Of a DNA stretch of 38,544 bases, positions 2 through 23,202 are shown piece after piece. Position numbers and translations under genes: made by a program. The notes beneath the pieces are model-generated. The model was not told the DNA's origin and did no database searches. It worked only from the letters and a program-made list of their open reading frames with translations. Location: contig JAFGDV010000002.1 in the NCBI GenBank assembly GCA_016931955.1, forward strand, positions 1 through 38,544, written 5' to 3'. Within the stretch, counting starts at the first letter, position 1. The number at the start of each line of letters is the position of its first letter. The DNA comes from Candidatus Altarchaeota archaeon. GTDB taxonomy: Archaea > Altiarchaeota > Altiarchaeia > IMC4 > QMZM01.

Positions 2-556
2 ACAAGCACCACAACTACTACATCAACAACTACAACAACTATGGAAACCACGACAACCTCGACAACAAGCCCTACTCCAACATCAACAACTACTTCAACA
101 ACCATAAAGAAAACAAAAAAGGATACCGACTCCCCCACAGAAAGCATTAGAGTCAATTTTGCAAAACCAAAGTTTACATGCTTTGATGGGATATTGAACT
201 GCCACGACGGCGGCTGTGAGACGGGAGTGGACTGTGGGGGGCCATGTGAGCCCTGCATGAGCTGTGAGGATGGGGTGCTGAATCAGGGAGAACATGGAGT
301 GGACTGCGGAGGGCCCTGTAGGCCGTGTCCGACGACGACCTCAACCTCGACGACTACAACACGGTCAGAGAAAACAACGACGACAACCACCAGTACAACC
401 ACTACGACGACAACACTCGAGCGGATAGATGTCACAGGAAAGGTTGCCGGCGGAATCACTTTGGAGGGGGGAATACTACTAAGCATACTGGCAATCCTGG
501 TATTGACTGGGTTCGCACTATACAGGGTTTATAGGAGAAAAGGTTCAGGAGTCTAG
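2..556 (+). CDS. Thr-rich, Cys-motif surface protein, 5'-truncated by window edge
   Basis: The reading frame is open from base 2, so the gene starts outside the window; 184 residues are visible. They begin with Thr/Ser tracts. Next come two copies of a Cys module of the form C-x-DG-x-LN...G(V)DCGGPC-x-PC (roughly bases 178-337), then a second Thr-rich linker and a C-terminal hydrophobic helix followed by a basic tail (RVYRRK). This is the architecture of an exported protein held in the membrane by its C-terminus, with a glycosylatable Thr stalk. The Cys module is familiar from archaeal surface proteins, where it probably forms disulfides. Substrate and partner are unknown. The 3' end overlaps the convergent nuclease gene by 12 bp. 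Confidence 0.75.
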   Translation, partial: TSTTTTTSTTTTTMETTTTSTTSPTPTSTTTSTTIKKTKKDTDSPTESIRVNFAKPKFTCFDGILNCHDGGCETGVDCGGPCEPCMSCEDGVLNQGEHGVDCGGPCRPCPTTTSTSTTTTRSEKTTTTTTSTTTTTTTLERIDVTGKVAGGITLEGGILLSILAILVLTGFALYRVYRRKGSGV

Positions 557-1387
557 GCCGTAGAAGTGTTTGGCTTCGGCGACGATTTCCTTGAGCTTGT
601 TTCTGGATATTCCGGTCTTCGTCGACAGGAGACTGAAGTCGTTGTTCACCAGATCCTTTGCAAGAATCATGTTGGCGCTGAAAAGCCTCAGCTTAGATCT
701 CTTGTCGACTGTCTTCAATATGGTTACAGGATATAAACCCTTTGACTCGATCATGAATTCTAGGGTGTTCTCTGGGGGAAACCTCCAACCAAGCAACTTA
801 AGATTCTTGCACTGAGCATACTGTATGGCTTCAGGGGAAAACCTCGTGTTAGTCACAAGCCATATTTCGTCGAAGTGAGGACAGTGACCCAAATCGCAGC
901 CCTCATTCAAGTCAAGTAATCGCGCGTAAGTGTACATAGCCTCCTTCAACCCAGTGTTAAGCCCCTTCGTGTTATGGTACTTGCATTCAACAGCCGAAAG
1001 CCTGCCGTCAGAGGATTCCACGATGACATCAATCTCGTGGATGACGCACACTCCCATGACGTGCTGCCTCACCTTGGTACTGTAGCCATATTCCCTCAGG
1101 ATCTCCCCAACATAGGTTTCGAATGCGAAGCCTTCAGGCCCCAGACGCATGATGGCTCCCTTTAGGTCGTATCTTGAAGCGAGAGACGGCCTCTCCATGT
1201 GCAGCAGCTGATGGACTATTCGGAAGATCTCCTTCGTGGTTATGCCTTCATAGAGTTTATCATTCAGTTGATCGAGGATTTCAGAAGCCAGCTCCTCAGA
1301 GGCCCCGGAACGCAGAACAGCGCGGCGGACCTTCTCCGGGTTATATTCCTCCAATTCGCCAGAAGCCTTCCTAATCATAATTGCCAT
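545..1387 (-). CDS. ATP-cone domain / Mrr-type restriction endonuclease fusion protein
   Basis: The 280-aa protein has two recognisable parts. Residues 1-90 look like an ATP-cone: the start (IRKASGELEEYNPEKVRRAVLRSG) resembles the nucleotide-sensing domain of ribonucleotide reductases and NrdR. Residues 85-200 match the Mrr/PD-(D/E)xK nuclease fold, with D120 in EIDVIVE and E134-x-K136 in ECKYH as the likely catalytic triad. The C-terminal 70 residues look helical and may bind DNA. The likely role is a DNA nuclease gated by ATP or dATP, but the biological target is not known. It could act in DNA repair or in defence. It is transcribed divergently from the cation exchanger and has no obvious methyltransferase partner here. 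Confidence 0.8.
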   Translation of the reverse strand: MAIMIRKASGELEEYNPEKVRRAVLRSGASEELASEILDQLNDKLYEGITTKEIFRIVHQLLHMERPSLASRYDLKGAIMRLGPEGFAFETYVGEILREYGYSTKVRQHVMGVCVIHEIDVIVESSDGRLSAVECKYHNTKGLNTGLKEAMYTYARLLDLNEGCDLGHCPHFDEIWLVTNTRFSPEAIQYAQCKNLKLLGWRFPPENTLEFMIESKGLYPVTILKTVDKRSKLRLFSANMILAKDLVNNDFSLLSTKTGISRNKLKEIVAEAKHFYGLDS

Positions 1388-19271: not shown

Positions 19272-20615
19272 TTATCCTTTTTTTTCAGGTTCCGGCGGTT
19301 TCACGAATAAAGCCATTAATGCAGCTATTCCAACCAACAAGCCGATGATAATTCCGGGCATCGTATAGCCTCCAACCGATGCTGTTGCTGGAACCATGTT
19401 TGCTGACAGCATTGGTCCGAGGATTCCTCCCACACCGTATGCAGTGAATACTGCGCCATAGTTGACACCAACGTTTTTAGTACCGAAAAAGTCCGCCGTC
19501 GCCGACGGGAACAGAGCGAAGTTGGCGCCGAAACATACCCCTATCAAGGCCATGACGGCATACACTGCAAGAGTGGACAACGTCGCAGTATATACCAGGG
19601 TGGATACAAGAACTGCCTGCACTGCAAACAGTACGAACATCGTCTTTGTCCTTCCTATTTGATCAGAAAGCCATCCAGCGAAGATCCTCCCAACCCCGTT
19701 GAATATGGCCAGCACGCTTACAGCCAAAGCCCCTTCCAAGCCAGCCGCAGCCGCCGGGAAGTCGTGCACCGTTTCGAAGGTCAACGAGGCGAAGTTCTTT
19801 AGAAACCCTATGACCATAAGGCCTGCTGATGCTGAAAACGTGAACATTACCCAGAGCAACCAGAACTGCCTCATCTTAATGATCTCTGAGATACTAAATT
19901 CCTTGTATGCGTGCGTAACCGCCTTCTTTACCTTCGTTGGATCCCAGCCCTCTGGTTTCCAGCCTTCGGGGGGGTTTTTTAGTAGCATTGCCCCAATACA
20001 GACTACTATGATAAATAAAACCCCCAATGTCAGGAATGTGCTCTGCAGCCCTATTCCCGCTAAACCATTTAACCCGGGGAGATTGAATATTGAAGCGACT
20101 ATTGGCTGTATTAATCCGGTTGGTTGGGCGGGCACGCCGCTTATCAATATCTCAGCCATCGGTGCTAGAAGCACCGAACCGAAGCCGAAGCCGAATACCA
20201 TTAACCCCATCACCAGCCCTCTCTTGTCTGGGAACCATTTACTTCCTGCGGCTATTGGTGCATTGTAAGCAAACCCTACACCAGAACCTGCTAGAACCCC
20301 GTATGTTATATACATCAGTATGTTGTCTTGTACAGATAAGCTTGAGGCTATGAATCCTAATCCGAGGAGCAGACCGCCTATTAGTGCTATTAACCTTGGG
20401 CCTTTTTTGTCTTGTATTCTGCCCGCTAGGGGCATGGTCACCGCGAAAAAGAGGAGCATGATGGAGAACGCCAGTCTTTCATCCGTCACCGCCCATTTGA
20501 AGTCCTTCTGTAGTGCGGCGCCGAAGATGCTCCATGTGTAGGTCACCCCGAGCATTAAGTTGATCAGTATTCCACCTACGACGATAAGCCACCTGTTGCT
20601 TTTAGAAGATCCCAT
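19272..20615 (-). CDS. MFS transporter, oxalate/formate antiporter (OFA) family
   Basis: The 447-aa protein has 12 predicted membrane helices. The N-terminal GVTYTWSIFGAALQKDF and the loop motifs GRIQDKKGPR and GWLSDQIGRTK identify the OFA group of the major facilitator superfamily. Members carry small carboxylates such as oxalate, formate or lactate, sometimes by exchange. The substrate here is unproven, but the synthetase encoded next in the operon suggests acetate, propionate or a similar acid. ATG 20615 has a GGTGA ribosome site 4 nt upstream. Expression is probably governed by the palindrome at 20639. Confidence 0.9.
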   Translation of the reverse strand: MGSSKSNRWLIVVGGILINLMLGVTYTWSIFGAALQKDFKWAVTDERLAFSIMLLFFAVTMPLAGRIQDKKGPRLIALIGGLLLGLGFIASSLSVQDNILMYITYGVLAGSGVGFAYNAPIAAGSKWFPDKRGLVMGLMVFGFGFGSVLLAPMAEILISGVPAQPTGLIQPIVASIFNLPGLNGLAGIGLQSTFLTLGVLFIIVVCIGAMLLKNPPEGWKPEGWDPTKVKKAVTHAYKEFSISEIIKMRQFWLLWVMFTFSASAGLMVIGFLKNFASLTFETVHDFPAAAAGLEGALAVSVLAIFNGVGRIFAGWLSDQIGRTKTMFVLFAVQAVLVSTLVYTATLSTLAVYAVMALIGVCFGANFALFPSATADFFGTKNVGVNYGAVFTAYGVGGILGPMLSANMVPATASVGGYTMPGIIIGLLVGIAALMALFVKPPEPEKKG

Positions 20616-20704: not shown

Positions 20705-21007
20705 TTACCTCACGTTGCCCCGAACCCAATCAATGAACTCCCTGTTTGCTTCAACCCCCATCCTGAGGATGCACGGAACCCTGTGGCTGTGGATTTCTCT
20801 CACAGCCCCTGCGACTTCGCTGAATCTCTTCTTCAAGGTCTTCGCAATTACCACGTATTCTTTGTCTTCTGTGATCTTGCCTTCCCACCAGTACATGCTC
20901 TCTATTGGGAAGAAGTTAGCGCAAGCTATCAGTCTCTTATCCAGGAGATGCTTTGCTATCTTCTCTGCCTCGGCTTTGCCCCTGCAGGTTATATATACCA
21001 GAATCAT
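20705..21007 (-). CDS. cutA: Divalent-cation tolerance protein CutA
   Basis: The 100-aa protein is a full-length CutA1. The family core ACANFFPIESMYWWEGKI (about residues 29-46) and the strand EYVVIAKTLKKRFSEV are present. CutA forms very stable trimers with a ferredoxin-like fold. It binds divalent metals and has been linked to copper tolerance in bacteria, but its real role is unclear. It starts 7 nt after the stop of the small Cys-rich gene, so the two form an operon. Confidence 0.95.
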   Translation of the reverse strand: MILVYITCRGKAEAEKIAKHLLDKRLIACANFFPIESMYWWEGKITEDKEYVVIAKTLKKRFSEVAGAVREIHSHRVPCILRMGVEANREFIDWVRGNVR

Positions 21008-21014
21008 CTGTAGA

Positions 21015-21173
21015 TCAGTCCAGTTCCCCCGACCTTATCTTTTCCACCAAGGTCTTCCATTCACTCTTCTTCAGGGTGCATAGATTCCCTTTTTCCCCGA
21101 TCCTTACTTCTTCTTTATCTACTTCCACTGCGGGGCAGCACTTGCAGGAGCCGCATAAGCTGATTACCTTCAT
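21015..21173 (-). CDS. Small 52-aa Cys-rich protein upstream of cutA
   Basis: A 53-codon frame starts with ATG at 21173, preceded 8 nt upstream by a near-perfect Shine-Dalgarno motif (GGAGGTT). The product begins MKVISLCGSCKCCPAVEVDK, with four clustered cysteines (C7, C10, C12, C13) and another at C32. Its C-terminus (KKSEWKTLVEKIRSGELD) looks like an amphipathic helix. The cysteines suggest metal or Fe-S binding; I do not know a named family. Its 7-nt spacing to cutA and divergence from the FdhD gene suggest a metal-handling role. Confidence 0.8.
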   Translation of the reverse strand: MKVISLCGSCKCCPAVEVDKEEVRIGEKGNLCTLKKSEWKTLVEKIRSGELD

Positions 21174-21227
21174 CTTTTTCAACCTCCTTTTTTAATTATT
21201 GTAGACCAGAGATTATTAACTAAGAGG

Positions 21228-21905
21228 ATGAAGTCTAAGGCTTTCAGGTACGGACCCAATGGAGTAGAAGAAGAAAACGTCACCGTATCCGACGAAGAAG
21301 TCTTCACCGTTTTCATCAACAACAAAGAGATCACACTCTCTGCTTCTCCCAGAGACTTGAGAGAGCTTGCTGTGGGCTTTGTCGTGTCCGAGGGATTCTC
21401 ACTCCATGAGGGGATAACCGACGTTGAAGTGGACGACAATAGGATATTGGTTGAGACTGGAGTCTGCGAGAATATCAAAGCCTCTAGGGTGTCTCATGGG
21501 CAGAAATTCCGTAGAGAGGTTATCTTGGACTCCCTCCGCTTCTTCAGGGAGTGTTCTGTTGAGTGGAAGCTCACCGGCGGAACTCACTCTGCTGCATTGG
21601 TCTCATCGGAGGGGGAATTATTGCGTTGTTTTGAGGATATTAGTAGGCGTAACTCTCTATACAAGATCATCGGCTGGGCTTTGTTGAACAATCAATCGCT
21701 GAGCAATAGATTTGTTCTTTTCACGGGCAGGGTTTCAGGTGATGTGGTGGAAAAGCTCGCAAGAGTTGGTGTTCCGTTAATCGTCTCCAACACGGCGCCG
21801 CTGTCCAAGGCAATAGAGTTCGCAGAAGAATACAATGTAACATTGATCGGATTCGCCCGACATCCTAGATTCACTGTATACAGTAATCCCTGGCGGATCA
21901 TCTAG
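21228..21905 (+). CDS. fdhD: FdhD-like sulfurtransferase homologue, apparently lacking the CxxC motif
   Basis: The 225-aa protein aligns with FdhD, which moves sulfur from a cysteine desulfurase to the Mo/W-bisMGD cofactor of formate dehydrogenases. Conserved blocks: TGGTHSAAL (116-124), EDISRRNSLYKIIGWAL (136-152; FdhD usually has GRHN), GRVSGDVVEKL (167-177), SNTAPLSKAIEFAE (187-200) and GFARHPRFTVY (208-218). The usual CxxC that carries the persulfide is not found; the region around 86-100 (RVSHGQKFRREVIL) has no Cys. It may therefore be a cofactor-binding paralogue with a changed mechanism. No formate dehydrogenase is in the window. It overlaps the convergent NifU-like gene by 4 bp. Confidence 0.82.
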   Translation: MKSKAFRYGPNGVEEENVTVSDEEVFTVFINNKEITLSASPRDLRELAVGFVVSEGFSLHEGITDVEVDDNRILVETGVCENIKASRVSHGQKFRREVILDSLRFFRECSVEWKLTGGTHSAALVSSEGELLRCFEDISRRNSLYKIIGWALLNNQSLSNRFVLFTGRVSGDVVEKLARVGVPLIVSNTAPLSKAIEFAEEYNVTLIGFARHPRFTVYSNPWRII

Positions 21906-22127: not shown

Positions 22128-22628
22128 TTACTGCTGCATCTCAATCTCAGTCGTCGAAGACGCAATAACCTCACTATTATATATTACATCAACGTTTACA
22201 TTATATGAGCCCGGTTGTATGCCCGCACAACCATAACAGCGAGGCGTCTGATAGGAGAAACTCTTCTGGTTCAATCCCCTTAAAAGCGCCATAGACTCAG
22301 TCTTATCAATCCGGTAGTAACCAGCGCTGATGCCGTATATCCTAAGCAGAACATCAAGGTCATGGGAGCTGTCCACGACAACGTTAATGCTCATGAGCTC
22401 ATTGGAGTGGTAAACATCCTTGTCGGTTGAAAGAGATATGTTGATTTCAGGATTCTGCACAAGAGGGCGTGTGGTGGTAGTTGATTGTGCAGTAGTCGAG
22501 GTTGTGGTTGCCTTCGTCGTGGTCGTCATCTGAGAGGAAACCTGAGTTGTAGTGGCTTCATCCACTTTTTGCCGAATGCATGCACTGAATAACAGAATAA
22601 CAACGAACACATAAGCCCATTTTATCAT
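22128..22628 (-). CDS. Thr-rich secreted lipoprotein with C-terminal beta domain (paralogue 1)
   Basis: The 166-aa protein has a signal peptide ending in a lipobox-like FSAC (C17), a Thr/Ser linker (about 26-54) and a folded C-terminal domain with beta-sandwich character. The domain carries RCYGC (C130, C133) and ends DVIYNSEVIASSTTEIE. The next gene upstream has the same plan and clear similarity (TDK-x-VY, CYGC-x-x-I-x-PG-x-Y, VIY, TEIE). Function is unknown; it probably sits on the outer face of the membrane. Confidence 0.8.
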   Translation of the reverse strand: MIKWAYVFVVILLFSACIRQKVDEATTTQVSSQMTTTTKATTTSTTAQSTTTTRPLVQNPEINISLSTDKDVYHSNELMSINVVVDSSHDLDVLLRIYGISAGYYRIDKTESMALLRGLNQKSFSYQTPRCYGCAGIQPGSYNVNVDVIYNSEVIASSTTEIEMQQ

Positions 22629-22677: not shown

Positions 22678-23202
22678 TCAGCTTAACTCTATTTCAGTGA
22701 CTGCGGTGGCAAGGATCTCCTCTTCGTATATAACCTCCACGGTGATCGGGTAGACGCCCGGAGAGATTGCATTACACCCATAACAGTCAGGCAATCTGTA
22801 ACTGAATTCCACCACCGTGATGCCTTCCTCAAGACTTATCTCCCTGCTTCTCTCTATGTGATAGGGGTAGTAAAGCCCCTCAATCCCATAAACCTTGATC
22901 TGTGCACCTTCAAGGATACTAGAACTGTTGACCTCCACAGTGATGTTCATGAGCTCATATGGGCGATAGACTCTCTTGTCCGTGAACAATGTTACCGAGA
23001 TGTTCCAGTCAACGGGCAGTGTCGTGCTCGTTGTCGTAGTCGTTGTAGTTGTCGTAGTAGTAGATGTTGTCGTAGTGGTGGTCGTTGTCGTGGACGTCGA
23101 AGTCACAGTGGAAGACGTCGTATCACCCACTTGGTCTCCAATGCATCCACTGAATACCGCCTGAAAGAGTACCAAAGACACTAAAATACCTGCTTTTTTC
23201 AT
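22678..23202 (-). CDS. Thr-rich secreted lipoprotein (paralogue 2)
   Basis: This 174-aa paralogue of the following gene has a signal peptide with FSGC (C20), an almost pure Thr/Ser linker (28-61) and a beta-type C-terminal domain with DCYGC (C140, C143), YELMNITVEVNSS and VIYEEEILATAVTEIE. The two proteins differ mainly in linker length. The CYGC pair is likely a disulfide or metal site outside the cell, perhaps maintained by the CcdA-thioredoxin fusion encoded at 11780. The name is structural only. Confidence 0.82.
   Translation of the reverse strand: MKKAGILVSLVLFQAVFSGCIGDQVGDTTSSTVTSTSTTTTTTTTTSTTTTTTTTTTTSTTLPVDWNISVTLFTDKRVYRPYELMNITVEVNSSSILEGAQIKVYGIEGLYYPYHIERSREISLEEGITVVEFSYRLPDCYGCNAISPGVYPITVEVIYEEEILATAVTEIELS
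23020..23121 (-). repeat. Thr-codon (ACN) low-complexity tract
   Basis: About 34 codons, nearly all ACN with a few Ser codons, encode the lipoprotein linker. The same kind of tract occurs at 1-120 and 340-420 in the surface-protein gene. Such imperfect trinucleotide arrays are prone to expansion and contraction in whole codons. Confidence 0.8.

Follow-up and report, generated by a model that had tools for sequence, protein, structure and literature searches.

The window analysed here, a 38,544-nucleotide stretch of DNA from a Candidatus Altarchaeota archaeon, carries on its minus strand an unannotated open reading frame of 52 codons (21015–21173, stop included), running from an ATG at 21173 to a TGA at 21015–21017. 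Homologue searches and alignment place its product, MKVISLCGSCKCCPAVEVDKEEVRIGEKGNLCTLKKSEWKTLVEKIRSGELD, in an unnamed family of proteins with a three-cysteine loop. The protein has no hydrophobic segment; the loop, LCGSCKCCP, identified from the model and the alignment, occupies codons 6–14 (21132–21158, minus strand) and contains C7, C10, C12 and C13, and a further cysteine, C32 (codon at 21078–21080, minus strand), is the residue that splits the family. A Shine-Dalgarno-like GGAGGTT (21181–21187, minus strand) precedes the gene, 7 bases from the ATG (9 if counted from GGAGG) and not 8 as given in the first-pass annotation, whose description of this ribosome site as among the best in the window holds, GGAGGT being found upstream of six window starts. 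The combination of GGAGG, a spacing of 4–10, an ATG and 50 codons occurs four times in the window, against a mean of 0.86 and a maximum of 4 in 50 dinucleotide shuffles; the ribosome site taken by itself argues weakly for the small gene.

Downstream, cutA (20705–21007, minus strand; PF03091, E 8.9e-32) begins 7 bases beyond the stop of the small gene, and fdhD (21228–21905, plus strand, first ATG at 21228; TIGR00129 over cut-off) is the divergent neighbour. The adjacent genes of the window are these two, a NifU-like gene and an MFS gene, cutA being the sole metal-related neighbour. The FdhD homologue reads ETGVCENIK, in which the second cysteine of the CxxC pair usual in FdhD seems to be missing. 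The MFS transporter (19272–20615, minus strand), over the NCBIfam cut-off for an L-lactate MFS transporter, is followed by an acyl-CoA synthetase-like gene, while two tandem, similar-looking Thr-rich lipoprotein-like genes (22128–22628 and 22678–23202, minus strand) each contain a CYGC motif.

The 52-codon frame is a real protein-coding gene, as had been proposed from the sequence, because it is conserved across genomes, and not on account of its ribosome site. The window protein matches six of 60 other genomes over nearly its full length (E≤6.7e-15), and a profile search of the window's phylum, the Altiarchaeota, recovered seven of 29 genomes, its own included, at E≤2.6e-28, with an eighth only at 0.009. 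Twenty-three family loci were confirmed by a scan of genome contigs, with titles naming Altiarchaeales/Altarchaeum, Undinarchaeales, Hecatella, Euryarchaeota, Dehalococcoidales and other Chloroflexi, Omnitrophota and Elusimicrobia. The family is patchy in the phyla sampled, occurring in 14 of 400 genomes of Chloroflexota at E≤0.001 (of which 12 at E≤5.6e-15), in 6 of 193 of Omnitrophota and in 5 of 250 in the phylum of Hecatella. Third codon positions hold the majority of the nucleotide differences in seven of ten homologue pairs (up to 26 of 33) and exactly half in the other three, two of which have only 6 differences. Loss of the frame in relatives that keep cutA, named in the first-pass annotation as the finding that would speak against a gene, was not what the phylum showed: seven of 15 cutA-bearing genomes, the window's own included, keep the frame, and eight are without the small gene.

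Neither Pfam nor NCBIfam gave anything better than E 0.0018 for 24 family members (NCBIfam best, E 0.028). A sequence search of the PDB returned two matches, neither credible, and single-query searches of plasmids (with a Chloroflexi homologue) and phages (with the window protein) returned nothing at E≤1. The most recurrent weak Pfam match, Usp-48 (PF24543), appears in 10 of the 24 members with a best E of 0.0018; it was rejected, the window protein scoring 17 bits where the cut-off is 27 and none of the 23 homologue genomes searched reaching that cut-off, and PHROG 20366, a weak match at E 0.024, was likewise dropped. No name for the family appeared in the titles or abstract openings searched. 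It is an unnamed, cysteine-rich family of about 50 residues, present in both archaea and bacteria.

Conservation was assessed in 43 sequences, comprising the window protein, the 23 contig-scan loci and 19 further homologues; weak or partial matches (G102, G229, G018, L098–L100), an additional short start found for L084 and 3-kb loci that repeated a genome already in the set (L001–L007, L042–L046, L062–L073, L076, L087–L097) were left out. L6, C7, P14, E27, N30 and L34 are invariant, while C13, V23, G26, W39 and L42 are each retained in all but one of the 43. The loop holds three or more cysteines (C7/C12/C13 or C7/C10/C13) in 42 members: between L6 and P14 there are three in 40 sequences, four in two (the window copy and L080r) and two in the long-branched row L086r. 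The middle thiol is provided either by C12 (CC type) or by C10 (C-x2-C-x2-C type), such that the count is kept while the position shifts. All four cysteines of the C7-x2-C10-x-CC pattern noted in the first-pass annotation are present in the window copy, but C10 is not a conserved position (18 of 43 homologues), and C32, which that pattern does not include, is present in 22 members and absent from 21, never occurring with the pure C-x2-C-x2-C type (0 of 16). The window copy is of the C32-bearing form. L083r and L084 have additional cysteine-rich C-terminal tails (CDCGCGCQ and CCPDCPPDCC, respectively) that are metallothionein-like.

Coupling to cutA and a position opposite an FdhD homologue had been read as clues to function. 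Of these, the divergent fdhD is indeed present at the window gene, but none of the 42 homologue loci, some of which are cut by contig ends, contains a match to the window FdhD at E≤1e-5. Adjacency to cutA is seen in one of the seven gene-bearing genomes of the phylum, namely the window's own; all seven carry cutA, in the other six on a different contig or, in G015, about 677 kb away. At the 42 homologue loci the window CutA has a single match at E≤1e-5, lying 1.66 kb away at L082, where Pfam confirms cutA. Within the phylum, cutA is present in all 7 bearers of the small gene and in 8 of 22 other genomes (p 0.006), a comparison that was set aside because it ignores kinship and genome completeness. 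The placement of cutA elsewhere and the missing FdhD at homologue loci rule out a CutA/FdhD partnership as a general clue; the useful clue is the cysteine rule together with the loci of the relatives.

These loci were scanned in six frames for metal genes (MerR, ArsR, MerA, MerT, CopZ-type, CopA, CsoR, cation efflux and ArsP-type) at E≤1e-15, on the same strand and within 3 kb of the family gene. Metal genes were found at 20 of 21 C32-lacking loci (the exception is L108r), at 3 of 22 C32-bearing loci (L027, L032, L086r) and at none of 20 control regions. Since the probes were drawn from the homologue loci themselves, these counts show how widely genes already identified there recur and are no independent discovery. 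The contrast gives a Fisher value of 4e-8 (1e-6 without near-copies), which is too strong because the C32 label changes only about three times, and at least twice, on a poorly resolved tree with few columns and many open forks. At the laxer limit of E≤1e-6, the MerA-like matches at C32-bearing L034, L106r and L107 are other disulfide oxidoreductases. One independent replicate of the pairing of C32 loss with a metal locus is provided by L109, which has no C32, has MerA 1 kb downstream, and groups on a starred branch with L106r/L107, where C32 is present and no metal gene was found at E≤1e-15.

Family models support the same linkage. Among 97 near same-strand neighbours (104 open reading frames minus eight long or duplicate ones, plus cutA), zf_CopZ matches 7, HMA 5, MerR 5, MerT 4 and ArsR 3, and thioredoxin-like models match up to 5. 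The controls were 67 proteins, read from 20 stretches chosen at round coordinates in 13 genomes that carry a homologue; there, none of these families was matched by two or more among the 25 of 97 control families listed, beyond which single metal-family matches may hide. MerA over the NCBIfam cut-off lies beside the family gene at L021, L026 and L109, the CopZ_Nterm metallochaperone passes its cut-off at L103 and L036, and a heavy-metal P-type ATPase does so at L080. MerB in L029 and MerC in L102 pass the Pfam cut-off, and Pfam further confirms MerR (in L084, for example), ArsR, cation efflux and ArsP/YHS domains, while the two MerR-type regulators tested stay below every specific NCBIfam cut-off. 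A MerR/ArsR-linked, mer-type context is found for relatives such as L021, L029, L036, L101, L102 and L103. The window copy does not lie in such a locus with MerA, MerB, MerC or MerT; its genome has no MerA match at E≤1e-60, and none of the 29 genomes of its phylum has MerA over cut-off, four unrelated-looking matches falling below it. Of the earlier guess of a metal or sulfur carrier, a link to metals is thus well supported for the family and would extend to the window copy by analogy with its relatives, while nothing found pointed to a sulfur carrier.

Several features of these loci were noted in passing. In the archaeal locus L109 an Lrp/AsnC-type regulator with an archaeal TRASH domain (204–854, minus strand) lies between the family gene and MerA. 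The MerR/ArsR tails at L036, L101, L103, L105, L083, L084, L085, L021 and L029 are CPxIE- or CPG-like, resembling the CPxVE of the family. One Chloroflexi genome, G068, has two family copies, L026 near MerA and L083 near a MerR gene.

The family does not belong to the core of mer systems. Among the 193 Omnitrophota genomes, six carry MerT, six the family and four both (p 4e-6), and four of the seven MerT loci scanned carry the family gene; among 400 Chloroflexota genomes, 85 carry MerA (E≤1e-120), 12 the family and four both (p 0.29), and of 30 MerA loci examined to about 1.5 kb on each side, two carry it. Both co-occurrence counts rely on identical settings having sampled the same genomes, an assumption that the shared handles support. 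The Chloroflexota counts rule out MerA as a general partner. Elsewhere the family gene lies near thioredoxin (Altarchaeum and IMC4 loci) or upstream of pheS/pheT-like genes (four Dehalococcoidales-type loci), and these contexts, with the MerA and MerT counts, suggest an accessory of some mer/cop loci that does something more general in other places.

The thioredoxin context prompts consideration of a thiol-redox partner, in which the loop and C32 would form a switchable disulfide reduced by thioredoxin, metals being secondary. Same-strand thioredoxin matches occur at L033, L034, L038 and L040, and one on the other strand at L108r, as against 0 of 20 controls; at L033 the gene (Pfam Thioredoxin) starts about 16 bases downstream of the family gene, and pyridine-nucleotide disulfide oxidoreductases, thioredoxin-reductase-like by eye, lie near L034 and L106r/L107. 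All the same-strand thioredoxins, however, are from the window's own phylum, with L034, L038 and L040 closely related, C32 is missing from 21 of the 43 members, and redox chemistry alone would leave the mer/cop loci unexplained; we consider a role of this kind unlikely. Most C32-branch members carry four thiols, which would also suit a small housekeeping iron-sulfur or zinc protein whose linkage to mer in one branch reflects opportunistic recruitment, as would the non-metal neighbours of that branch, the pheS/pheT-like genes included. As the other branch has only three conserved thiols, such a protein seems to us very improbable.

AlphaFold2 models of the window protein (mean pLDDT 85.7; strands 2–4, 15–18, 22–27 and 30–35, helix 36–48) and of the Omnitrophota member L036 (mean pLDDT 89.1) show the same order of elements, with the cysteine loop predicted to join strands 1 and 2. 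Four strands with a terminal helix, a trait of DUF397, are thus predicted in both. Structural comparison of the window model places PC4/Sub1 chains on top (Z 4.3–4.1, rmsd 2.5–2.6 over 47 residues), while for L036, PC4, Sub1 and YdbC entries make up 8 of the first 14 rows (Z 5.0–4.3; human PC4 at Z 5.0, rmsd 2.0, 47 residues), below the Enterococcus protein 3pm7 (Z 5.5) and KhtT (Z 5.1). All rows have Z<8, which may reflect a common arrangement, and Foldseek found nothing at E≤0.001 for either model. Local HHalign comparison with ten DUF397 proteins scored 25.2 over 47 columns (P 2.6e-4; the best of 300 column shuffles reached 18.8), the local alignment alone standing out since the global score was poor (15.1), and three PC4-type proteins gave 28.9 over 26 columns (maximum of 300 shuffles, 17.2). 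None of 476 decoy ORF translations from homologue loci reached 25 (maximum 20.9), although these decoys are single sequences, some surely spurious, and may score below profiles; single DUF397 sequences scored 11.2–26.0.

The similarity to PC4 and DUF397 is suggestive of kinship. We do not assign the protein to either family, given that the two Pfam models fail to match and the motifs of DUF397 are lacking: DUF397 (PF04149) and PC4 (PF02229) have no match in 24 members at E≤1, and DUF397 none in the window's own genome at E≤10. In place of CxE in strand 2 and RDS at the end of strand 3 the family has C13-P14-x-V-(E), its G26-E27 falling near where RDS aligns, and the XRE-type HTH partner gene typical of DUF397 is absent next to the window gene. 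The predicted fold also bears on whether the protein is a metal- or redox-sensing regulator, touching nucleic acid or the adjoining MerR/ArsR and tuning transcription. The four strands and helix in both models, the lead of PC4/Sub1 in the window list, profile scores above all shuffles and decoys, and the MerR or ArsR gene that adjoins many members are consistent with this, and the second model moved the odds slightly towards it; but KhtT and another protein score similarly in the low-Z list, Foldseek and the Pfam models are silent at their limits, and the PC4 profile match covers only 26 columns, with decoys that are single sequences. We regard a regulator as distinctly unlikely.

On balance we favour, with modest confidence, a cytosolic protein that binds soft metals (Hg/Cu-type) through thiolates and serves as buffer or in hand-over, in the manner set out here for both branches. 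The three loop thiols of this small, soluble and presumably cytosolic protein would hold one soft metal ion of Hg(II) or Cu(I) type. Trigonal thiolate binding is suggested by three conserved thiols within one loop of a tiny protein found at Hg/Cu loci; MerR and ArsR sensors use three-thiol sites. The bound ion would be buffered or passed on. In the C32-lacking branch the protein may work within MerR-, ArsR- or CsoR-linked mercury and copper loci, probably between uptake (MerT) and a sink (MerA, or a CopA pump); in the C32 branch, that of the window, the extra thiol would probably contribute to metal or thiol homeostasis more broadly, at some loci next to thioredoxin. The comparisons support the gene, its conservation, the three-thiol rule and the locus linkage of the C32-lacking branch; metal binding itself, the metal concerned, the affinity, the hand-over and such a role for the window copy are what we infer from the sequences.

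Among known systems, the MerP/HMA metallochaperones (CopZ, the MerA N-terminus) are likewise small cysteine-bearing proteins of mer/cop loci, and the task of holding and passing on a soft metal is likely the same. In contrast to the HMA metal-binding motif, a GMTCxxC pair, the family has a three-thiol loop; its predicted fold differs, and none of 24 members matches HMA (PF00403) at E≤1. The zf_CopZ/CopZ_Nterm putative iron-sulfur metallochaperone (PF18423, NF047645) is also cysteine-rich and, by name, concerned with metal handling, but is a separate, neighbouring gene in Omnitrophota loci, and its models match none of 24 members at E≤1. PC4/Sub1/YdbC (PF02229) has the four strands and helix predicted for the family and a similar end, GxxLxxxEWxxL, but named PC4 chains reach at most Z 5.0, and the three PC4 sequences used have no cysteine loop. 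Archaeal mer operons are described as often consisting of merA alone, and small stand-alone TRASH-domain proteins, proposed as Hg traffickers in Sulfolobus mer operons, are reported only from archaeal mer operons (PMC3466566). The family resembles these in being small, stand-alone and present at archaeal mer loci, but is also bacterial, and none of 24 members matches TRASH at E≤1. DUF397 proteins are described as confined to actinobacteria, with four strands, a helix and CxE in strand 2 (PMC7159879). DUF397/BldB (PMC7159879, PMC10294661) and the family, as modelled, share four strands, a terminal helix and a conserved cysteine in strand 2, while differing in CPxV(E) for CxE, in the missing RDS and in the lack of an XRE partner by the window gene.

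A wider proposal, tentative and leaning towards doubtful, is that tri-cysteine mini-proteins of PC4/DUF397-like fold constitute a third class of soft-metal carriers (or sensors) next to the HMA and TRASH proteins. The C32 form would then serve metals and thiols generally, in archaea as in bacteria, and its counterpart without C32 would have arisen along with recruitment to mercury/copper loci, at least once in archaea (L109). It raises the question of whether the fold of DNA-binding PC4, and perhaps of Streptomyces BldB-type regulators, can also carry metal. Comparative evidence has here established as real, and tied to a process, a 52-codon reading frame that no database model describes; if the proposal is true, it would add a new type of protein to mercury and copper handling, archaea included.
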